From positions 1-64,000 of the forward strand of contig NZ_JACGXS010000005.1 in NCBI RefSeq assembly GCF_014117215.1: a stretch of 64,000 nt of DNA, read 5' to 3'. The translations under genes and the position numbers were made by a program. Under the pieces are notes generated by a model. That model searched no databases and had not been told where the DNA came from. It saw only the letters and a program-made list of their open reading frames with translations. Source of the DNA: Stenotrophomonas tumulicola. GTDB taxonomy: Bacteria > Pseudomonadota > Gammaproteobacteria > Xanthomonadales > Xanthomonadaceae. Shown piece by piece: positions 3,658-59,619 of the stretch (position 1 is the stretch's first letter; every line of letters starts with the position of its first letter).

Positions 3658-5490
3658 ATGTTCCGCTGGTTCGAAGCCCTTATCCCGGTGTTCCCGCCGG
3701 TGGACAAGCGCACGCCGCCCCGCAGCGTGGCGGCGTTCTATCTGTTCTACCTGCGGCCGGTATGGCCGGTACTGCTGGCCACGCTGGTCGCCGGGTTGCT
3801 TCTGGCGCTGGTGGAAGTAGCGATGTTCGACTTCCTCGGCCGCATCGTGGACATGGTCGCCGAGCAGCCCGGCGCGGGCTTCTTCCAGCGCCATGCCCGT
3901 GACCTGGCATGGATGCTGGTCATCTGCGTGGTGGCAAGGCCGGTGCTGGTCGGCCTGCACAACCTGTTGGTCAACCAGGCCATCGTGCCGGGCCTGAGCA
4001 ACCGCTCGCGCTGGCTGATGCACAACTACGTGGTTCGGCAGAGCCTGACCTTCTTCCAGAACGATTTCGCTGGCAGCGTCGCCAACCGGGTCATGCAGAC
4101 CGGCACCTCGCTGCGTGAATCCGCGGTGCAGATGGTGGATTCGCTCTGGTACATCGTGGTCTACACCGGAACCGCGCTGTTCCTGTTCGCGCAGGCCGAT
4201 TGGCGGCTGATGGTGCCGCTGGTGCTGTGGCTGCTGGCCTATGCGGTGATCATGGTGTATTTCGTGCCGCGCGCGAAGCAGCGGGCGTGGATCGCTTCCG
4301 AAGCCCGGTCCAAGGCCATGGGGCGCATCGTCGACGGCTACACCAACATCCCGACGCTGAAGCTGTTCGCCCATGGCGGGCACGAACAGGCCTACGTGGC
4401 CGAGGCGATCGAGGAACTGGCGGTCAAGCATCGGCGGCAGACCCGGGTCACCAGCGGCATGGACCTGACCATCGCCATCGTCAACGGTTTCCTGATCGCC
4501 GGAACCTGCGGGCTGGCGCTGTGGCTGTGGAACGGTGGACATATCACCGTCGGCGCCATCACGTTGGCCACCGGCCTGGTGATCCGCATCCACAACATGT
4601 CCGGTTGGATCATGTGGACCATCAACGGCATCTTCGAGGACATCGGCACGGTGCAGGATGGCATGACGACCATCTCCCAGCCGTTGACCGTGCAGGATCG
4701 CGACGATGCCGTGCCGTTGCGCGTGACCGCCGGCGGCGTGCACTTCCAGGACATCCATTTCCACTACGGCAAGCGCGGTGGCGTGATTTCCGGGTTGGAC
4801 CTGCAGGTGCGGCCGGGCGAGAAGATCGGCCTGGTCGGGCCGTCCGGCGCGGGCAAGTCGACCTTGGTCAACGTGCTGCTGCGCCTGTACGACCTGGAAA
4901 GCGGGCGCATCCTCGTCGACGGGCAGGACATCGCAGCGGTCACCCAGGAGAGCCTGCGCGGCCAGATCGGCGTGGTGACCCAGGACACCTCGCTGCTGCA
5001 TCGTTCGATCCGCGACAACCTGCTGTACGGGCGCCCCGGGGCCAGCGAAGAAGAAGTACGCGCGGCAGTGGCCAAGGCGCGGGCCGATGGCTTCATCGGC
5101 AGCCTGGTGGACGCCCAGGGGCGGCAGGGCTACGACGCGCTGGTCGGCGAACGCGGGGTGAAGCTGTCAGGTGGACAACGCCAGCGCATCGCCATCGCGC
5201 GGGTGCTGTTGAAGGATGCGCCGATCCTGGTGCTGGACGAAGCGACCTCGGCGCTGGATTCCGAAGTGGAAGCTGCCATCCAGGACAACCTGGACGAACT
5301 GATGGGCGGCAAGACGGTGATTGCCATCGCGCACCGGTTGTCGACCATCGCGCGCATGGACAGGCTGGTGGTGATGGACCAGGGACGCATCGTGGAAACG
5401 GGTACGCACGCCGAGCTGGTCGCTGCCGGGGGCCTGTATGCGCGGCTGTGGGCGCGGCAGACAGGTGGGTTCGTCGCCGCGGAGGGGTGA
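3658..5490 (+). CDS. ABC exporter, fused permease/ATPase
   Basis: 610 residues: an N-terminal six-helix ABC transmembrane domain (about 30-320) and a C-terminal nucleotide-binding domain. The Walker A lysine is K400 in GPSGAGKST, the signature LSGGQ spans 503-507, and Walker B ends in D527-E528 (LVLDEATSALD). The fused half-transporter architecture implies a homodimer, or a heterodimer with an unlinked partner, exporting a lipid, peptide or drug. No substrate-defining accessory gene is adjacent. A GATAAT box about 30 bp upstream is a plausible -10. The gene stands alone and is closed by an inverted SMAG pair. Confidence 0.9.
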   Translation: MFRWFEALIPVFPPVDKRTPPRSVAAFYLFYLRPVWPVLLATLVAGLLLALVEVAMFDFLGRIVDMVAEQPGAGFFQRHARDLAWMLVICVVARPVLVGLHNLLVNQAIVPGLSNRSRWLMHNYVVRQSLTFFQNDFAGSVANRVMQTGTSLRESAVQMVDSLWYIVVYTGTALFLFAQADWRLMVPLVLWLLAYAVIMVYFVPRAKQRAWIASEARSKAMGRIVDGYTNIPTLKLFAHGGHEQAYVAEAIEELAVKHRRQTRVTSGMDLTIAIVNGFLIAGTCGLALWLWNGGHITVGAITLATGLVIRIHNMSGWIMWTINGIFEDIGTVQDGMTTISQPLTVQDRDDAVPLRVTAGGVHFQDIHFHYGKRGGVISGLDLQVRPGEKIGLVGPSGAGKSTLVNVLLRLYDLESGRILVDGQDIAAVTQESLRGQIGVVTQDTSLLHRSIRDNLLYGRPGASEEEVRAAVAKARADGFIGSLVDAQGRQGYDALVGERGVKLSGGQRQRIAIARVLLKDAPILVLDEATSALDSEVEAAIQDNLDELMGGKTVIAIAHRLSTIARMDRLVVMDQGRIVETGTHAELVAAGGLYARLWARQTGGFVAAEG

Positions 5491-5589: not shown

Positions 5590-7404
5590 TTATTCGATCG
5601 GCTGGTCCAGCATCAGCTGGCGTGCGAAGCGCACCGGTGGCGCGCCGTAGGACAGCATCTGGTCGTGGTAGGTCTTCAGGTTGAAGGTGTCGCCCAGCTT
5701 TTCCTCGGCCGCCTTGCGGGTGTCGAAGTGTTCCTGCGCCCCGACGAAGTAGGTGGGCAGCTGGGCGGACGTCAGCTGCGCACGCACCCACTTGCCCGAT
5801 GCTTCGCTTTCCTGCTGGAACGCATCGTGGGTCATCAGCTGCATGGCCTGCTCACGCGTCCAGTTGTCCACGTGCACGCCCTGGTCCAGGATCGCATTGG
5901 AAATGGTGCGCAGGTAGAACTTCAGCTGCACGAGGTGGAACAGTGGATCGTTGTCCAGGTAACCCTGCTCCTGCATCATCCGCTCGGTATAGACCGCCCA
6001 GCCTTCGGCGAACAGTCCCGAACGCAGCACGGCGCGCAGGGTGGAGGGGAACTTGCCCGAGTGCCAGCCTTCCAGGTAGTGGCCAGGAGTGCCTTCATGG
6101 ATGCTCAGCAGGTGGATCATGCGCGAGTTGTATTCGCGCAGGAACGAGTCGACCTGCTTGTCGCTCCAGTCTTCCGGGATCGGCGAGACGGCGTAGAAGG
6201 TCTTCAGGTTCTTGTCCAAGGGGCCGGGAGAGTCGCAGTAGGCCACGGCCACGCCGCGCTGGAACTCCGGCATCAGGATGATGTCCACCGGGGCGTCCGG
6301 CAGGGTCATCAGGTCGTGCTCGCGCACGAACGCGGTGGACTGGTCCAACGCTGCCTTGGCATCGTCCACCACTTTGTCGCGCGCCGGCTTCTCTGCATAG
6401 GCCAGTTCAAGTGCCGCCTCGATCGCCTTCTGCTGCTGTTCGTCGCTGGGGCTGGCCGGCATCGCGGGCGCGCCTGGCTTGTCCTTCAGCACGACCTGCG
6501 CGATGCCGTACATGTCCTGGCGCACGCGCTTGAGTTCAGCCCGGGCGCGCTCGCCGATCTCCTGCCGCGACAGCGAGGAGTTCAGCGCGAACTTCAGCTT
6601 CTGGTCGTACAGGTCCGCGCCGATGCGGAACTCGCCCTTGGCGTTCGGCACCAGGGTCTTGTCCAGCCACTGCTGCTGGTCGTCCACGGCCTTGCGCAGG
6701 CCGTCGATGGCAGCCTGCAGGCGTTGCTGGTCGGCCTGCGGAAGCTCGCCAACATGCGGGGTGATGAACGTATCGACGATGCTCAGGATGCCGCGGTTCT
6801 GCTTGGCCACCGTCTCTGCATGGATCTTCGGCACGCGTGCCGGGTCCAGGTTTTCGCGGGCCTGGGCGAAGATCGTGGGGATCTTCTCCATGCGCGCGGT
6901 AGCCGACTTCAGGCGGTCGGGCAGCGGGGCGAACTCGCGGGCCATCAGGCCATAGAGCGCACTGCCGGCCAGGCCGTTGTACAACTGCGGATCCCACTTC
7001 GCCGACTGCAGGACCTCGGCGTTCCAGATGTCCGACTGCAACTGGTTACGCAGGATCGCCGCATCCACCTGGTTCTCGCGGCCAAGGCTGGCGACCTCGA
7101 CCTTGTCCAGGTCGGCGAGCAGGCCCTTGTAGGCGGCCAACGTCTTCTGCTGTCCCGCTGCGCTGAGGTCGTCGATGTCGCTGTCGAAACGGTGGTCGCC
7201 GATCTGGGTGGCGCCGACCGGGGACAGTTGCATCCAGGTGTCCAGCGCGCGCCTGGAAAGATCGGCGAAGGCCGCATCTGCAGTTGCATCACCGGCCTGG
7301 GTGCTGGCTGGGGTCCCTGCGGTCCCATTGGCGGAGGGGGTGTCGGCCTGTTGGCAGCCACCCAGGGCGGCGATCAGGGCGAGGGCGAGAAGATGCTGGC
7401 GCAT
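5590..7404 (-). CDS. DUF885-family lipoprotein, putative zinc peptidase
   Basis: 604 residues. The ATG at 7404 gives a lipoprotein signal peptide with the lipobox LGGC (residues 13-16), so it is probably anchored in the envelope. A Ser/Thr/Ala-rich linker follows. The DUF885 core carries a HExxH-like motif, H436-EGTPG-H442, followed by LFAEGWAVYTE, which could supply the third zinc ligand. This pattern is shared with gluzincin peptidases; DUF885 itself is formally uncharacterised. The frame stays open upstream of 7404, but the earlier starts lack the signal peptide. Monocistronic, convergent with the ABC exporter. Confidence 0.87.
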   Translation of the reverse strand: MRQHLLALALIAALGGCQQADTPSANGTAGTPASTQAGDATADAAFADLSRRALDTWMQLSPVGATQIGDHRFDSDIDDLSAAGQQKTLAAYKGLLADLDKVEVASLGRENQVDAAILRNQLQSDIWNAEVLQSAKWDPQLYNGLAGSALYGLMAREFAPLPDRLKSATARMEKIPTIFAQARENLDPARVPKIHAETVAKQNRGILSIVDTFITPHVGELPQADQQRLQAAIDGLRKAVDDQQQWLDKTLVPNAKGEFRIGADLYDQKLKFALNSSLSRQEIGERARAELKRVRQDMYGIAQVVLKDKPGAPAMPASPSDEQQQKAIEAALELAYAEKPARDKVVDDAKAALDQSTAFVREHDLMTLPDAPVDIILMPEFQRGVAVAYCDSPGPLDKNLKTFYAVSPIPEDWSDKQVDSFLREYNSRMIHLLSIHEGTPGHYLEGWHSGKFPSTLRAVLRSGLFAEGWAVYTERMMQEQGYLDNDPLFHLVQLKFYLRTISNAILDQGVHVDNWTREQAMQLMTHDAFQQESEASGKWVRAQLTSAQLPTYFVGAQEHFDTRKAAEEKLGDTFNLKTYHDQMLSYGAPPVRFARQLMLDQPIE

Positions 7405-7558: not shown

Positions 7559-7852
7559 TCAGCCTTCGTCGGTCTCGAATTCGACGAATACGTCCAGCTC
7601 CAATGCGAGTTCCTGCACCGCGTCGCGGATCTTCTGCGCAGTGTTTTCATTGCCGACTTCCACTTCCAGCTCATGGATGCCCGGGCCGATGTCATCGGAC
7701 AGCCCCGCGGAACTGGAATCTTCATCGTCCATATGCGGCATCAGATCGTCTGTTTCCTCGATGTGCTCGATGCCTTCCACGCCTTGCAGCAGGTCGCTGA
7801 TCGCACGGGCGTCGTCCTCGGTTCCGGTGATTCGCAGTCGCAGCATGGGCAT
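7559..7852 (-). CDS. Conserved acidic small protein, function unknown
   Basis: 97 residues if started at the ATG at 7852 (MPMLRLRITG); the frame extends to 7921 without a good start. Not recognised as a named family. Two similar beta-alpha-beta-like halves flank a very acidic linker: residues 1-35 (LRLRITGTEDDARAISDLL...) and 60-97 (IHELEVEVGNENTAQKIRDAV...). The middle is rich in Asp, Glu and Met. It has no signal peptide or membrane segment. Base composition and codon use match the neighbours. It lies 81 bp downstream of a LysR gene on the same strand. Confidence 0.6.
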   Translation of the reverse strand: MPMLRLRITGTEDDARAISDLLQGVEGIEHIEETDDLMPHMDDEDSSSAGLSDDIGPGIHELEVEVGNENTAQKIRDAVQELALELDVFVEFETDEG

Positions 7853-16453: not shown

Positions 16454-19400
16454 TCAGCTGGCCCAGGGGGGGCTGTAGCGCACCTTCAAGGTGCGGATGG
16501 CGGGGTCGGCGCGCAGGGCTTCAATCAGCTTGGAATCGATGCGCACCGCGCTCTCGCCAGCGACGTCGAGCATGCCGGCCACGGCACCGTCCTCGCCCTT
16601 CAGCAACAGGTCCAGGCGCAGCGGCGTGCGGCCGGGTCGGTGGCGATCGAGCAGGGCATTGACGCGCTCCCACACCGGACGGTCACGCCGCAGGTCCAGG
16701 CGCAGCGACAGCCGCGTAGCGTAGTTCGCGCAGACTTCGTCGAAGTCCCAGCATTGGCGGATGCGCAGCGCGAAGCCGCCGTTGAACTCGTCTTCGCGCA
16801 GCCCGCCCTTGACCACGAGGATGCGGTCCTTGGTCATCAGGTGGCCGAACTCGGCCATGGTGTCGGAGAACGCACTGCACTCGACGCGTCCACGCCCGTC
16901 TTCCAGCTGGATGAAGATCTGGCTCTCGCCCTTGCGGCGCACGCCGACCACCTGCCCGGCCAGCACGGCCTGTACCTCGGGACGCCAACGCTTCTCGCCG
17001 CCGCCGCCGTTGCTGTTGGCCGCCCAGATGCGCTCCACCGCGCCCAGGTCGTTGCCGACCAGGTCATGCACGTCTTCGCGATGCGGATCGAAGGGATGCC
17101 CGCTGAGGTAGAAGCCCAGCGTGTCACGCTCGCCGGTGAGCCGTTGCAGCAATGGCCACTCATCGGTTTCCTGCAGTTCCAGGTGGATGGCCGGTGCGTC
17201 CGGGTCCGGGCCGCCGAACAGCGAGTTCTGTCCGGATGCCCGTTCGCGCGCCATCTGCTCGGTGGCCTTGACCACTTCCGGCAGTTGCAGCATCAGCGAA
17301 GCACGGTTGCGTCCCAGTTCATCCAGTGCGCCGCAGTTGATCATCGCCTCCAGCGTGCGCCGGTTGAGCTTGGCCGAGCCGATGCGGGTGCAGAAATCCA
17401 GCAGGTCGGTGTAATGCCCCTTCTGCAGGCGCTCGTCGACCACCGCTTCGCATGCGCCTTGGCCAACGCCCTTGATCGCGCCAAGGCCATACTGGATGGT
17501 GTCCGGGCTGGCGGCTTCGAACATGTACGCCGACTGGTTCACCTTCGGCGGCAGCACGGTCAGGCCAAGGTTGCGTACTTCGTCGAGGAAGCCGACCACC
17601 TTTTCGGTGTTGTCCATGTCCGAGGACAGCGTGGCCGCCATGAACTCGGCCGGATAATGGCGCTTGAGCCAGGCGGTCTGGTAACTGACCAGCGCGTAGG
17701 CGGCGGCGTGCGATTTGTTGAAGCCGTAGCCGGCGAACTTCTCCATCAGGTCGAAGATCGCATCGGCCTTCGCTTCCCCGACGCCGTCCTTGGCGGCGCC
17801 TTCGCGGAATATTTCACGATGCTTGGCCATTTCGGCCGGCACTTTCTTGCCCATCGCACGGCGCAGCAGGTCGGCGCCGCCCAGCGAGTAACCGCCGACG
17901 ATCTGCGCCATCTGCATGACCTGCTCCTGGTACACCATGATGCCGTAGGTGTCGCGCAGGATGCGTTCGGTACGCGGATCGGGATACTCCACGTCCTCGC
18001 GCCCGTGCTTGCGGTCGACGAAGGAGGGGATCAGGTCCATCGGGCCGGGACGGTACAGCGATACCAGCGCGATGAGGTCTTCGAAGCGATCGGGCTTGGC
18101 GTCCTTCAGCAACCGGCGCATGCCGGAGGATTCGAACTGGAACACCGCGCCGGTGTTGCCCGAAGCGAAGATGTCCTTGTAGGTTGGCGCATCATCCAGC
18201 GGCAGCGCCGCGATATCCACCGGTGGGATGCCGGCACGCTCGTGGCGCTGGTTGATCGCCTTCACCGCCCAGTCGATGATGGTCAGCGTGCGCAGGCCGA
18301 GGAAGTCGAACTTCACCAGGCCGACTTCTTCCACGTCGTTCTTGTCGAACTGGGTGACCGGGTTGCGGCCGATGCCGTTTTCATCGTGTTCGGCGAACAG
18401 CGGGCAGAACTCCGCCAAAGGCTCGGGGGCGATGACCACGCCACCGGCGTGCTTGCCGGCGTTGCGGGTCAGGTCTTCCAGCTGCCGCGCCAGGTCGATC
18501 AGGTCGCGGACATCGTCCTCGCTCTGGTAGCGCTGGATCAGCTCGGGCGAGGCCATCTCGCTGTCCTTGCCTTCGCCCATCGCGTCCTTCAGCGAAATGC
18601 CGAGGATGTTCGGGATCAGCTTGGCCACGCCATCGACCAGTCCGTACGGGAAGCCGAGCACGCGGCCACAGTCGCGCACCACTGCCTTGGCCGCCATGGT
18701 GCCGTAGGTGATGATCTGGCTGACCCGCTCGCGGCCGTACTTGCGCGCCACGTAGTCGATGACTTCGTCGCGACGGTCCATGCAGAAGTCGATGTCGAAG
18801 TCGGGCATCGACACGCGTTCCGGGTTGAGGAAGCGCTCGAACAGCAGGTTGTACGGCAGGGGATCGAGGTCGGTGATCTGCAACGCCCAGGCCACCAGCG
18901 AACCGGCACCGGAACCGCGGCCGGGGCCGATCGGGATGCCCTGGTTCTTGCCCCACTGGATGAAGTCGGCCACGATCAGGAAGTAACCGGGGAAGCCCAT
19001 CTTGATGATGGTGTCCAGTTCGAATTCCAGCCGATCGCTGTAGTCCTGCGCGGTCATGCCCGCGGCCAGCGGGTTCTTTTCCAGGCGGGCAGCCAGGCCC
19101 TTGCGCGATTCGCTGCGGATCCAGCTGTCCAGCGTCTCGTCGTCGGGTACTGGATAGTTGGGCAGGAAATAGGTGCCCAGCCGCATCTCGATGTTGCAGC
19201 GTTCGGCCAGCGCCCGCGTGTTGTCGATGGCGTCGGGGATGTCGGCGAACAACGCGCACATCTCCTCGGCCGATTTCAGGTATTGCTGGTCGCTGTAATC
19301 GCGCGGACGCTTTGGGTCGTCCAGCACGCGGCCGGAGGCAATGCAGACGCGCGCCTCGTGCGCGCTGAAATCGGTCGGCGACAGGAACCGCACGTCGTTG

Positions 19401-20032
19401 CTGGCGATCACCGGCAGGCCGCGCTGGCCTGCAGCCATCAGGGCGAACTGGTTGAAGGCTTCCTCGCCGTCGCGCCCGGTACGGGTGAGCTCCAGGTGCA
19501 GGCCATCGCCAAACACGCGTTGCCAGTCCGCCAATTGCTGTTCGGCCAGGTCGTGCTTGCCTGCGGCGGCCAGCCGTCCGGCCAGGCTTTCCCGCCCACT
19601 CAGTGCGAACAGGTTGTGGCAACTGGCCTTCAGCCATTCCGGATGCACGGCCACGCCGCCTTCGGGCCGATGGCCTTCCATCCACGCCCGGGTCAGCAGT
19701 CGCGACAGGCTGAGGTAGCCTTCGCGGTCGCGGCACAACAGGGTCATCCGCCAGGGATCCTGGCCTTCCTCGGCGATCATCACGTCAGCGCCGGCGATCG
19801 GCTTGATCCCCACGCCTTCGGCGGCCTTGTAGAACTTGACCAGCGCGAACAGGTTGTTGAGGTCGGTCACGGCCAGCGCGGGCAGGCCCAGTTCCACCGA
19901 ACGCGAGAGCAGGTTGGCCTGTTTGGCTTTTTTCGGGTCGGCCTGGTCCGGCTTCGCCGGCACACGGATGGTGGAATCCGCCAGCGAGAATTCGGTGTGG
20001 ACGTGGAGATGGACGAAGCGGGAGTTGGACAT
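16454..20032 (-). CDS. dnaE: DNA polymerase III subunit alpha
   Basis: 1192 residues, slightly longer than E. coli DnaE (1160). This is the replicative polymerase subunit. The PHP domain starts at once (FVHLHVHTEFSLADSTIR). The palm holds the catalytic Asp pair in PDFDIDFCMDRR, after GPGRGSGAGSLVAWAL. KSHAAAYALVSYQTAW marks the fingers/helix-hairpin region. An internal clamp-binding motif of the QxxLF type is QNSLFGG. The OB-fold (AGQVVGVRRKGES...) and C-terminal domain complete it. The ATG at 20032 is the only one preserving the PHP start. It is separated from rnhB by a 647-bp repeat-rich gap, so probably has its own promoter. Confidence 0.98.
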   Translation of the reverse strand: MSNSRFVHLHVHTEFSLADSTIRVPAKPDQADPKKAKQANLLSRSVELGLPALAVTDLNNLFALVKFYKAAEGVGIKPIAGADVMIAEEGQDPWRMTLLCRDREGYLSLSRLLTRAWMEGHRPEGGVAVHPEWLKASCHNLFALSGRESLAGRLAAAGKHDLAEQQLADWQRVFGDGLHLELTRTGRDGEEAFNQFALMAAGQRGLPVIASNDVRFLSPTDFSAHEARVCIASGRVLDDPKRPRDYSDQQYLKSAEEMCALFADIPDAIDNTRALAERCNIEMRLGTYFLPNYPVPDDETLDSWIRSESRKGLAARLEKNPLAAGMTAQDYSDRLEFELDTIIKMGFPGYFLIVADFIQWGKNQGIPIGPGRGSGAGSLVAWALQITDLDPLPYNLLFERFLNPERVSMPDFDIDFCMDRRDEVIDYVARKYGRERVSQIITYGTMAAKAVVRDCGRVLGFPYGLVDGVAKLIPNILGISLKDAMGEGKDSEMASPELIQRYQSEDDVRDLIDLARQLEDLTRNAGKHAGGVVIAPEPLAEFCPLFAEHDENGIGRNPVTQFDKNDVEEVGLVKFDFLGLRTLTIIDWAVKAINQRHERAGIPPVDIAALPLDDAPTYKDIFASGNTGAVFQFESSGMRRLLKDAKPDRFEDLIALVSLYRPGPMDLIPSFVDRKHGREDVEYPDPRTERILRDTYGIMVYQEQVMQMAQIVGGYSLGGADLLRRAMGKKVPAEMAKHREIFREGAAKDGVGEAKADAIFDLMEKFAGYGFNKSHAAAYALVSYQTAWLKRHYPAEFMAATLSSDMDNTEKVVGFLDEVRNLGLTVLPPKVNQSAYMFEAASPDTIQYGLGAIKGVGQGACEAVVDERLQKGHYTDLLDFCTRIGSAKLNRRTLEAMINCGALDELGRNRASLMLQLPEVVKATEQMARERASGQNSLFGGPDPDAPAIHLELQETDEWPLLQRLTGERDTLGFYLSGHPFDPHREDVHDLVGNDLGAVERIWAANSNGGGGEKRWRPEVQAVLAGQVVGVRRKGESQIFIQLEDGRGRVECSAFSDTMAEFGHLMTKDRILVVKGGLREDEFNGGFALRIRQCWDFDEVCANYATRLSLRLDLRRDRPVWERVNALLDRHRPGRTPLRLDLLLKGEDGAVAGMLDVAGESAVRIDSKLIEALRADPAIRTLKVRYSPPWAS

Positions 20033-20220: not shown

Positions 20221-20326
20221 GGCGGGGCGGGGTGGGTTTGCGGGGGACGGCAAGGACTGCATCCTGCGTGCCTCGTCTCGCGCCATCCATGGCGCTCGAC
20301 GCCCCCGCCAACCCACCCCGCCCCAC
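20221..20326 (+). repeat. TCCA-loop hairpin element, copy 1
   Basis: Outer arms at 20224-20246 and 20302-20324 match in 22 of 23 positions. Inside are the core GGGGGACGGCAA, a small stem around GCATCCTGC, and an apical stem GCGCCA-TCCA-TGGCGC at 20280-20295. The order of outer stem and two inner hairpins would fold as a three-way junction. It is the same family as 20511-20621 (inverted) and 25028-25132. The function is unknown: a structured repeat, small RNA or terminator are all possible. Confidence 0.65.
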
Positions 20327-20427
20327 CTTCGACAGGTCCACGGCGGCCATGGACAGGGCATTGGGGTAATGGGAACTGAGGGAAATAGAGGATGGTCTGG
20401 GGTTGATCTGGTAGGTGATCTGGTGGG

Positions 20428-20454
20428 TGACGACCGTTGGTCGTCACGCTCTAC
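20428..20454 (-). repeat. SMAG palindrome (divergent stem)
   Basis: Read on the minus strand it starts GTAGAGC and then forms GTGACGACC-AAC-GGTCGTCAC. It has the GTAG head typical of SMAG, with a different stem sequence from most copies in the window. It lies between the two TCCA-loop elements. Confidence 0.6.
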
Positions 20455-20510
20455 CGCTTTTCAGCTCTTCTTTCTTTTTTCAACGCGGCTGGCGGACGGG
20501 AAACCGTCAG

Positions 20511-20621
20511 GGTGCCGGGCGGTGGGGCTGGACGGGGGCGTTGAGCGCCATGGATGGCGCGAAACGAGGCCCGCAGGATGCGGCTTTTGCCGTCCCCCGC
20601 CCAGCCCCACCGCCCGGCGCC
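20511..20621 (-). repeat. TCCA-loop hairpin element, copy 2 (inverted)
   Basis: Reverse-complement copy of the element at 20221-20326. The outer arms are 20511-20540 and 20591-20621, with only a few mismatches. The apical stem GCGCCA-TCCA-TGGCGC (read on the minus strand) is at 20545-20560 and is identical to copy 1. Its second inner hairpin is CCGCA-TCC-TGCGG. The outer stem sequence differs from copy 1 while pairing is kept, which suggests that structure is what is conserved. Confidence 0.65.
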
Positions 20622-20679: not shown

Positions 20680-21357
20680 TTACAGCGCCAGCGCCATCTC
20701 CACCGGAGCAGAAACCGGCACCGTCAGACACTCCCGCACCGGGGCGAAACTGCGCCGATGCTCCACGCACGGGCCGTGCGCGCGCAACGCCGCCAGGTGC
20801 GCCGGCGTGCCATATCCCTTGTGCTGGTCGAAACCGAAGTGCGGGAACTGTTCATGCACCTGCTGCATGTACCGGTCGCGGCTGACCTTGGCCAGGATGG
20901 AAGCGGCCATGATCGCGCGGTCGATGGCATCGCCGCCGATCAGCGCTTCGCCCGGCAGCACCAGGCCCTTGGGCACCACGTTGCCGTCGATGCGTGCCAG
21001 GTCGGCGGCATGCGCCACCGCCGCCACGACCTCGCGCATGCCTTGCAGCGTGGCCTGGTAGATGTTCAACCGGTCCACGGTGGGGGCATCCACCAGCACG
21101 ACATGCCAGGCCAGCGCGCGTTCGACGATACGGTCATGCAGTTGCTCGCGCCGCGCGGCGGTGAGTTGCTTGGAATCATCCAGGCCATTGATGCGCGGTC
21201 GCGCCGGATCGAACACCACGGCAGCCACTGCCACCGGACCGGCCAGCGGCCCCCGCCCGGCTTCATCCACGCCGGCGATGCGCTGCGTCCTGGCTGCCGC
21301 CGGAGCGGTGGCCCCGAACAGTGCCAGGGTCGCTGCCGCAGCGGAGCGGCGGCCCAT
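20680..21357 (-). CDS. rnhB: Ribonuclease HII
   Basis: 225 residues; RNase HII cuts RNA of RNA-DNA hybrids and single ribonucleotides in DNA. The catalytic acids begin in [16 protein letters not shown] (Asp-Glu). Further conserved parts are [40 protein letters not shown] and [14 protein letters not shown]. The first ~27 residues ([15 protein letters not shown]...) are an Ala-rich, poorly conserved extension. The ATG at 21357 overlaps the lpxB stop by one base (TGATG), so translation is coupled to lpxB. It is the last gene of the lpx operon. Confidence 0.96.
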
Positions 21358-22604
21358 CAGGCCACCGCCTCGCGCACGATCAAGGCGGCCACGGCGTCGG
21401 CCGCGCGCGCCGAGGCATCGCGGCGCAGGATGCCATGCAACTGGTCGTAGCTGGCCTGCAGGTCGATGACCTTCTGCGGGTGGTCGAACCATTGCTGGAT
21501 CGCGGCGGCCAGCTTTTCCGGCGTGCAGTCATGCTGCATCAGCTCCGGTGCGAGGTCCTTGCCGGCAAGGATGTTCGGCAGCGCGTAACGGTCCACCTTC
21601 AGCAGGCCCAGTGCCTTGACCAGGCGATAGGTCAGTTCGGCCACGCGGTAGGCGACCACCATCGGCCGCTTCACCAGCATCGCCTCCAGCGTCGCGGTGC
21701 CCGAGGCGAGCACCACCACGTCGGCGGCGATCATCGCGGTGCGTGCCTGTCCGTCCAGCACGTGCGAATGCGCAACCGGCAGGGCCGAGCGTGAAAGCTG
21801 GGCGTCGATCAACTGGCGGCACGCGGCATTGGCCGCCGGCACCACCACATGCAGCCCGGGGATGCGCTCGGAGACCTGCCATGCGGCCTCGAAGAAGGGC
21901 TCGCCCAGCCGGCTGATCTCGCCCAGCCGGCTGCCCGGCAGGACGGCCAGCACCTTGGCGTTTGCCGGCAGGCCCAATGCCGCACGTGCCTGCGCACGGT
22001 CCACGCGCAGGGGGATGTCGTCGGCCATCGGGTGCCCGACGAACTGCGCCTCGATACCATGGCGCGCGTAGATCGGCGGTTCCATCGGGAACAGGCACAA
22101 CACCAGGTCCGCGCTGGCACCGATTTTCTCGGCGCGCTTCTCGCGCCACGCCCAGACCGAAGGACTGACGTAGTGGACAGTACGGATGCCACGCTGCTTC
22201 AGCCAGCGCTCCACGCCCAGGTTGAAATCGGGGGCATCGATTCCGATGAACACGTCCGGTTGCCATTCCAGCACGCGTTTACGGAAGGCCGCGCGCAGCT
22301 TGAGCAGGCGCGGCAGGTGGCGGAGTACTTCGGTCAGCCCCATGACCGCCAGTTCGCTGGCATCGAACCAGGTCTGGCAGCCTGCATTGCGCATGCCATC
22401 GCCGCCGATGCCGGCGAACTCGGCGTTCGGGAAGCGCGCCTTGAGCTGGGACACCAGGCCTGCCCCCAACTGATCGCCGGAGGCCTCGCCTGCCACCAGC
22501 GCGATGCGCACCGGGCGGCCATCCACCCTGGCCGGGACGCCGGCACCCAGCGCGCCGGGCAGTGGGATGACAGTGGCAACCGGCGGTCGCTGGGTCTGGT
22601 TCAT
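21357..22604 (-). CDS. lpxB: Lipid-A-disaccharide synthase
   Basis: 415 residues. LpxB joins UDP-2,3-diacylglucosamine and lipid X to make the lipid A disaccharide at the inner face of the inner membrane (GT19 family). Hallmarks are [79 protein letters not shown] and [21 protein letters not shown] ~30-residue non-conserved N-terminal leader precedes [12 protein letters not shown]. The start overlaps the lpxA stop by four bases (ATGA), and the stop overlaps the rnhB start. Confidence 0.97.
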
Positions 22605-24886: not shown

Positions 24887-25027
24887 GCGGGGAGTTTACC
24901 GTGTGCCGTGACTTCGGTCATGTTGCCCCCCAGGTCAATGCAATTTCCCCGGTTTCCGTGACGCCGGGCGTTGCCCGGCTGCTGTTGGATTCGTGCGAAC
25001 AGCCGGCGTTCACGCGTTCCGAGGCTT

Positions 25028-25132
25028 GGCGGGTCGGGATGGGCGTTCCGGGGGACGCTGCAAGTACGTCCATGTAAGCTCGGTCGCCGCATCCATGCGG
25101 CTCACGCCCCCTCCAGCCCACCCCGACCCGCC
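25028..25132 (+). repeat. TCCA-loop hairpin element, copy 3
   Basis: Outer arms 25028-25044 and 25116-25132 pair in 16 of 17 positions. GGGGGACG follows the left arm, as in the two copies near 20.2-20.6 kb. Two inner hairpins are TACG-TCCA-TGTA and GCCGCA-TCCA-TGCGGC (25086-25101). The stems differ in sequence from the other copies, while the TCCA loops and layout remain. It lies in the bamA-lpxD gap. Confidence 0.65.
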
Positions 25133-43480: not shown

Positions 43481-43915
43481 GCACCTTCGACAGGTGCATG
43501 CGGCGTAGCGCCGGGCCATGCCCGGCGGAATGGGGTGATGGGGATGGGTAGAGCGGGTCCATGACCCGCTGCCCTTGTTTTCGGCATCGCGCCAACGGCA
43601 GCGGGGCATGGCCCCGCTCTACCGATTCGTTCTTGCGCATACCCATCCGCCCCACCTTCGACAGGTCCATGCGGCATCAGGTAGCGCCGGGCCATGCCCG
43701 GTGGAACGGGATGATGGGGGTGGGTAGAGCGGGTCCATGACCCGCTGCCCTTGTTTCCGGCATCGCGCCAACGGCAGCGGGGCATGGCCCCGCTCTACCG
43801 ATTCGTTCTTGCGCATACCCATCCGCCCCACCTTCGACAGGTCCATGCGGCGTCGGGTAGCGCCGGGCCATGCCCGGCGGAACGGGGGCATGGCCCCGCT
43901 CTACCCATTTCGTCT
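43481..43915. repeat. 176-bp tandem repeat made of SMAG palindromes
   Basis: Two units of exactly 176 bp (43505-43680 and 43681-43856) differ at about seven positions. The tail of a unit precedes them (43481-43504), and the first part of a third follows (43857 to about 43912). Each unit carries a GTAGCGCC palindrome, a GTAGAGCGGG palindrome, an inverted ...CCCGCTCTAC palindrome, and the 20-mer CCCCACCTTCGACAGGTCCA. Open frames across it are not coding. The rest of the gap up to 43991 shows no gene; TTGACA (43915-43920) and TTGCCA (43941-43946) are possible -35 boxes without clear -10 partners. Confidence 0.85.
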
Positions 43916-57393: not shown

Positions 57394-57480
57394 TGGTGCC
57401 CAGGAGAGGACTCGAACCTCCACGAAGTTGCCCCCGCTAGCACCTGAAGCTAGTGCGTCTACCAATTCCGCCACCTGGGC
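57394..57480 (-). tRNA. tRNA-Leu(CAG), copy 1
   Basis: 87 nt including the encoded CCA. Acceptor arms GCCCAGG/CCTGGGC pair fully. The anticodon loop TTCAGGT gives CAG (57444-57446), reading CUG, the main Leu codon in this genome. The long variable arm of tRNA-Leu is present. It is identical over its whole length to the copy at 59325-59411. Confidence 0.95.
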
Positions 57481-59324: not shown

Positions 59325-59411
59325 TGGTGCCCAGGAGAGGACTCGAACCTCCACGAAGTTGCCCCCGCTAGCACCTGAAGCTAGTGCGTCTACCAATTCC
59401 GCCACCTGGGC
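59325..59411 (-). tRNA. tRNA-Leu(CAG), copy 2
   Basis: 87 nt including CCA, identical to copy 1. Anticodon CAG at 59375-59377. Its own promoter and terminator flank it, so the tRNAs are not processed from one transcript. Confidence 0.95.

Positions 59412-59534: not shown

Positions 59535-59619
<85 letters not shown>

Follow-up and report, generated by a model that had tools for sequence, protein, structure and literature searches.

The facing pair of elements between dnaE and rnhB, E1 and E2, belongs to a new family whose elements are paired and fold into three-way junctions; the family is spread class-wide and lies outside Rfam. The comparisons below demonstrate the fold of these elements through covariation, a strand bias in their stem mismatches, near-invariant GGA loops, inward pairing and wide spread. 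We consider it about an even chance (roughly 0.5) that these two elements and their relatives act as RNA that is read from one strand, named R, and bound by RsmA/CsrA. Strand R carries GGA loops and is the complement of strand S, which carries TCC loops and on which the sequence-only reading had described the pair.

The element pair and its fold

The window analysed is the whole stretch of 64,000 nt, and its features are collected in Table 1. An opposed pair of elements of about 105 nt had been described there from the sequence alone, and it was recovered as a 102-nt inverted repeat in which E1 and E2 are 82% complementary and 193 nt apart. The apical 16-mer with its TCCA loop has the same letters in both elements, which bears out the claim of a shared core with an identical apical stem. 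The outer stems, said to be unlike in sequence and still paired, were found to be near-perfect within each element (arms of 26 nt at 92% and 28 nt at 93% complementarity), and covariation was observed in further copies. Both dnaE and rnhB are on the minus strand; E1 is located about 190 nt upstream of the start of dnaE and E2 begins about 60 nt past the stop of rnhB. RNA folding of the E1/E2 region gave a z score of -12.0 relative to shuffled sequences, with none of 100 shuffles being equal. A simple scan of the centre between the two elements found no promoter-like or terminator-like sites.

Table 1. Positions of the elements, their parts and the adjacent genes in the window
Feature	Position	Strand	Basis or remark
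E1 element	20221..20327	+ (S strand, TCC loops); R strand (GGA loops) = minus	inverted repeat, covariance-model match
E2 element, facing E1	20513..20620	- (S strand); R strand = plus	inverted repeat, covariance-model match
E1 outer stem, 5' arm	20221..20246	+	inverted-repeat search
E1 outer stem, 3' arm	20302..20327	+	inverted-repeat search
E2 outer stem, arm 1	20511..20538	+	inverted-repeat search
E2 outer stem, arm 2	20594..20621	+	inverted-repeat search
E1 inner hairpin 1	20257..20272	-	loop AGGAT on minus strand
E1 inner hairpin 2	20280..20295	-	C-ATGGAT-G on minus strand
E2 inner hairpin 2	20545..20560	+	C-ATGGAT-G on plus strand
E2 inner hairpin 1	20569..20584	+	loop AGGAT on plus strand
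Centre of the E1/E2 pair	20328..20512		GTAG-type hairpin at about 20427-20456 (by eye)
Third copy, single	25027..25132	+; R strand = minus	R loops ATGGAC and ATGGAT
rnhB	20680..21492	-	ORF, name from first sequence reading
dnaE	16454..20032	-	ORF, name from first sequence reading

A covariance model made from the copies in the same genome recovers E1 and E2 in the window together with a weaker third copy (52.4 bits, E 3e-8), in agreement with the three copies counted earlier. The third copy precedes the start of an ORF (24886) by about 140 nt; this ORF is a putative lpxD that was named by reading. Taken by itself, the apical 16-mer pattern is no more frequent in the window than chance predicts (two occurrences against 1.7 expected), which is not the case for the whole element.

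The fold was evaluated in an alignment (A6) of 46 diverse R-strand copies, which are those with a regular hairpin 2 among 67 eligible copies and include four Stenotrophomonas loci (L339, L358, L370 and L374). The drawn pairs form in 94.8% of the pair cells, compared with 61.1% for shuffled partners and 36-47% for slid ones. The covariation score is 0.859 (0.211 when shuffled, 0.12-0.20 when slid) and both sides have changed in 577 cells against 172 after shuffling. At least one two-sided change was observed in 32 of the 37 pairs, which is a weak measure alone since shuffles reach 30.4; the five invariant pairs are those fixed by the search pattern. In an alignment of 11 copies from the own genome, 14 of 41 predicted pairs were changed on both sides. 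The three-way junction that had been suggested by the two inner hairpins is therefore supported by covariation. Aligned arms in the class-wide set reach up to 49 pairs with a median of 28, and most of the class-wide loci that were folded resemble E1 and E2, a few being less clear (e.g. L290 and L301).

Two other candidates were considered. A double-stranded site for a dimeric regulator, for which the palindromic 16-mer was considered, was rejected because the hairpin stems vary and the loops are constant. A G-quadruplex in the G-rich 5' arms of Stenotrophomonas was set aside because stems that lack G-tracts occur in other genera.

Spread and comparison with known families

With E1 as the query, 39 pieces were found in its own genome (G000), about 12 of which are good copies and several of which lie at contig ends. 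The outer stems in this genome belong to at least three sequence types, one of which also occurs with a different core, and the copy at C22:70743 has arms from two stem types and poorer pairing. At L016-L023, L027 and L028 of the same genome, several of them again at contig ends, the E1 outer stem is joined to a different core (ACGCGCCGTGAACCCATCCATGGGGGCTCCTGTTCGGCTCC...). Judging from the sequences of these loci, stems and cores are apparently exchanged between elements.

The sequence-only reading had proposed a covariance-model search of Stenotrophomonas and Xanthomonas genomes; relatives were found in both genera, further copies are present genome-wide and the outer stems do covary. A match at E 1e-5 occurs in 71 of 91 Stenotrophomonas genomes, a count made under strict filters with 42 candidates scored per genome. 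Two complete Stenotrophomonas genomes hold elements at at least 67 and at least 70 distinct places, and the core pattern was observed in at least 119 stretches of named genomes. At the family level, 27 of 198 sampled genomes match and these are spread over 11 of 54 genera. The genera among the matches listed include Stenotrophomonas, Xanthomonas, Arenimonas, Marinobacter, Microbulbifer, Rheinheimera, Shewanella, Moritella, Alteromonas, Methylotuvimicrobium, Saccharospirillum, Erwinia, Sodalis and others, and the titles of the core matches listed are those of Gammaproteobacteria or unplaced Proteobacteria MAGs.

Two sets of copies underlie several of the counts that follow. Overlap removal reduced 172 model hits (85 + 87) to the 147 copies of the Stenotrophomonas set. 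The class-wide core matches numbered 135, of which 125 had room, 123 were distinct and 101 had arms of at least 16 for the strand test. One core copy with a Stenotrophomonas-like stem was found at 7823-7847 of a contig that is classed as viral (L376, IMGVR_UViG_2924561020_000002); it is counted once among the pooled 123 elements and in the strand count over all elements and is omitted from both strand counts made without particular taxa.

No Rfam family was found over an element at the gathering score in the window and 17 class loci. When matches with E up to 1 were taken in six loci, only a below-cut-off mir-15 match lay over an element (L325), and an rsmX match of 29.4 bits (cut-off 56, E 0.11) was located beside, not on, the Moritella element. 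The scanned loci gave no Rfam 15 match and no title or abstract on this paired three-way-junction family was found in the open-access literature searched, which would apply equally to a family of DNA elements.

The SMAG/GTAG REP sequences of Stenotrophomonas are likewise abundant intergenic palindromes of the same genus that are often paired, according to the available parts of PMC2613905 and PMC3733652. GTAG hairpins were seen by eye both in the centre of the E1/E2 pair and in the C22 centre. However, SMAG is described in the text available as a short single stem-loop of about 23 nt with the consensus GTAGTGCCGGCCGCTGGCCGGCA, and with GTAG at one terminus (PMC2613905), whereas E1 and E2 are about 105 nt long, lack GTAG and form a three-way junction. 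The E1/E2 family also differs in its locus-specific outer stem, its conserved loops and its class-wide spread, and the earlier statement that the pair is unlike SMAG is thus supported. Elsewhere in the window, large GTAG-flanked hairpins (GGTAGAGCGGGTCCATGACCCGC...GCGGGGCATGGCCCCGCTCTACC) stand in tandem at 43546-43623 and 43722-43799, 176 nt apart and downstream of a putative dapE ORF; they give weak model matches and belong to a different family. The window also holds a tRNA gene cluster on the minus strand (57397-57480, 59328-59411 and 59538-59619).

CsrB, RsmY and RsmX have hairpins with GGA loops for RsmA/CsrA. RsmZ likewise has hairpins that show such loops to RsmA/CsrA, as set out in the part of PMC4005645 consulted here. 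In contrast to these sRNAs, the E1/E2 family occurs in tens of dispersed copies with two GGA loops per three-way junction, no own promoter was found, and a single weak microRNA-model match was all that Rfam gave over an element. Among 21 genomes, CsrB gave no match over the cut-off and two below it, with a positive E. coli control; RsmZ gave none over the cut-off and one below, which is little proof as the control genomes likewise gave none over the cut-off. RsmU of Xanthomonas is also GGA-bearing and comes from the same bacterial family, and it is an RsmA-binding RNA derived from a 3'-UTR; unlike the E1/E2 family it is a single locus and not a dispersed repeat. RsmA antagonism in Xanthomonadaceae seems to be little known, RsmU being reported only in Xanthomonas in the portion of PMC7694677 at hand. 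The same portion gives four predicted GGA motifs in RsmU and states that in vitro binding was not abolished when they were changed. At L294 of Xanthomonas dyei, matches to the sRNA sX9 were observed at 2408-2483, 4208-4283 and 6210-6285, within 4 kb and with none overlapping the element.

Strand polarity and loop sequence

For the strand test the arms were aligned with all mismatches scored equally, and a mismatch was counted only if two Watson-Crick pairs flank it on each side. In the 101 elements, the interior stem mismatches on S were observed to be A.C in 92 cases and G.T in 8, the others being pyrimidine-pyrimidine (46) and purine-purine (5). Counted per element, 56 are A.C-biased on S and 6 are biased in the opposite direction, with 39 ties. 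The A.C:G.T counts on S are 71:6 without Stenotrophomonas, 40:6 without named Lysobacterales and 21:2 for Stenotrophomonas. The outer stems of G020, G133 and G154 show the same direction (30:4), and in those of Stenotrophomonas G083 the bias is nearly gone (51 A.C, 39 G.T). In hairpin 1 the bias is reversed, with G.T 14 versus A.C 2 in G020, G133 and G154 and 35 versus 5 in G083, a reversal that is partly an artefact of the N/X loop position being drawn as a pair.

Since A.C on S corresponds to G-U on R, the folding of R seems to be what is protected. The asymmetry argues for one folded strand, either RNA or single-stranded DNA, and against a symmetric cruciform, which was rejected as the main reading because the mismatches are strand-biased. 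From the earlier proposal of RNA or cruciform structure, the single folded strand is therefore favoured and the symmetric cruciform disfavoured. The bias also argues for the folded strand being complementary to that on which the TCCA loop was first described. It would be equal for RNA and for single-stranded DNA and so cannot separate these two. DNA hairpins, too, tolerate G-T, which would allow the same mismatch bias if the family were a dispersed DNA element of REP type. In that reading a transposase or other nuclease would recognise one strand folded as single-stranded DNA, with the loops providing the specificity, and RNA would play no part. We regard this structure as the main rival to the RNA reading, and as rather unlikely.

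Template-switch repair yields perfect arms of arbitrary sequence. The outer stem could have arisen in this way as a neutral palindrome with arms matched by quasi-palindrome correction and no selection, and the balanced mismatches of G083 would fit. Such an origin is nevertheless very improbable in our view because the near-invariant loops, the conserved junction and the polarity-tied mismatch bias are not accounted for.

The loops were observed to be nearly invariant on R. Hairpin 1 of G020 reads C-A-N-G-G-A-X-G in all 55 distinct cores, with variation at N and X only, and hairpin 2 reads C-ATGGAT-G in 54 of the 55. The cores of G083 (66) and G133 (12) are similar, some copies having shorter AGGA loops. 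Class-wide, hairpin 2, which the search pattern left free, has TCC on S (GGA on R) in 116 of 123 elements and reads C-ANGGAX-G in 99 of them. The exceptions comprise four ANGGAX loops with another closing pair, three AGGAX loops and ten GGA loops in which the A two positions earlier is missing (AGGA in two of the ten). TCC is lacking in 7 of the 123, and in at least one of these (L275) the finder chose another stem.

For RsmE, the high-affinity site proposed in the consulted part of Duss et al. (PMC4005645) is an ANGGAX hexaloop that sits immediately on a stem; N and X may vary, and the adenines stack on a C-G pair. The E. coli CsrA motif from CLIP-seq is AuGGAug in a short stem-loop, according to the available text of PMC5694010. 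Hairpin 2 of both E1 and E2 has, on the R strand, an ANGGAX hexaloop directly on the stem with a C-G closing pair, and hairpin 1 has the shorter AGGAT. In addition, CsrA-family matches were observed, one in the own genome and at least one in 20 of 21 genomes.

In the RNA reading, the functional RNA would be transcribed from the R strand, which is minus for E1 and plus for E2. Its long, locus-specific outer stem would lead to a three-way junction with two small hairpins, each of which would present RsmA/CsrA with A-N-G-G-A-X or A-G-G-A-X in a loop above a closing C-G pair. RsmA would bind this RNA, and the transcripts may titrate RsmA or be stabilised or regulated by it. A wider proposal, which we put forward as possible but doubtful, is that unlisted RsmA/CsrA-binding RNAs are dispersed class-wide, the Stenotrophomonas copies serving as a genome-spread sponge or as local landing pads in transcript ends or leaders that replace a CsrB/RsmZ-type RNA. 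If the elements bind RsmA, a junk-like repeat would be a regulatory layer widespread in Gammaproteobacteria; if they are DNA elements instead, they would still make up a palindrome family that is spread class-wide, has a strand polarity and is paired inward.

Arrangement, transcription and turnover

Neighbouring elements separated by under 700 bp in the loci of G020, G083, G133 and G154 were observed to face inward in 44 cases, to be in tandem in 2 and to face outward in none. For class-wide cores less than 900 apart, the counts are 9 inward (three in Stenotrophomonas), 3 tandem and 1 outward. In home-made gene calls the nearest outer gene points toward the element in 94 cases and away in 47, with 4 unknown. 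For the less GC-rich genomes, 22 of 37 outer genes point toward the element, at a median distance of 40 nt, and 15 point away.

These orientations, the short gap and the C22 centre, which by eye resembles a two-way terminator, would be consistent with an ordinary 3'-UTR structure, a giant hairpin past the stop that protects mRNA ends or aids termination and whose loop sequence is irrelevant. Such a structure predicts G-U on S, and the stem mismatches show the opposite except in G083 and in hairpin 1. As it also leaves the near-invariant loops unexplained, and a third of the outer genes face away, we consider this explanation improbable.

An outer gene that points toward an element would transcribe S and not R. 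In inward pairs flanked by such genes R runs outward from the centre, and its transcription would need either a promoter between the two elements or read-through out of the far gene. Sigma-70-like scores in the centres showed no preference for outward promoters (48/93, p 0.43), and it is on the source of R-strand transcription that the RNA reading is weakest. As an example of read-through, a transcript continuing from rnhB would include the binding strand (R) of E1 and the opposite strand of E2. On the centre side, T-runs within 250 nt were counted for S in 29 and for R in 47 of the 147 copies of the Stenotrophomonas set, and in 28 and 31 of the 123 class-wide elements. On the outer side the counts are 14 for S and 1 for R in the Stenotrophomonas set and 29 and 16 class-wide. 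In the upstream flanks of many copies in G020, G083 and G000, (RGCAAC)n hexamer runs or a CGAACGG..CCCCTCG block separate the outer stem from the adjacent gene, and these look like conserved linkers.

Turnover was examined at two sites. Of 30 loci at the rnhB-dnaE site, one has the pair described here, one (L047) is cut by a contig end and one (G050) retains a remnant in which the start of E2 is joined to the end of E1. The other 27 have no full-scoring copy; many of them have other short palindromes, L060 has a run of N, and a 30.6-bit match in L053 resembles, by eye, a GTAG hairpin pair. For a second, orthologous site, 30 loci were fetched and six cut by contig ends were omitted. By the model, at least one element is kept in 23 of the remaining 24 relatives, two are kept in 18, and L402 has none. 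Two stem types were observed at the same place in this locus, where the gene segment is 92-100% identical. Pairs thus differ between species yet stay in place among close relatives.

The absence of full-scoring copies in the 27 relatives (L060 with its run of N among them) is the kind of turnover expected of a REP-like DNA element, as are the many copies, the stem families within one genome and the apparent recombination of pair members (L048; L393). The intergenic inward pairs also resemble REP dimers as these are described in the available part of PMC3733652. Against this, E1 and E2 lack GTAG, no associated enzyme was identified among neighbours that were listed as ORFs only, and pairs are retained in place at the second locus. 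Furthermore, the loop fits the RsmA/CsrA consensus, including which positions vary, and this fit favours the reading as R-strand RNA elements.

Six relatives (L383, L394, L396, L397, L402 and L406), located downstream of the L164 gene, have about 80 nt inserted into the loop of hairpin 2 in the left element. By eye the insertion adds two hairpins with TCC loops, and it looks like either growth of the element or a small mobile palindrome that targets the loop.
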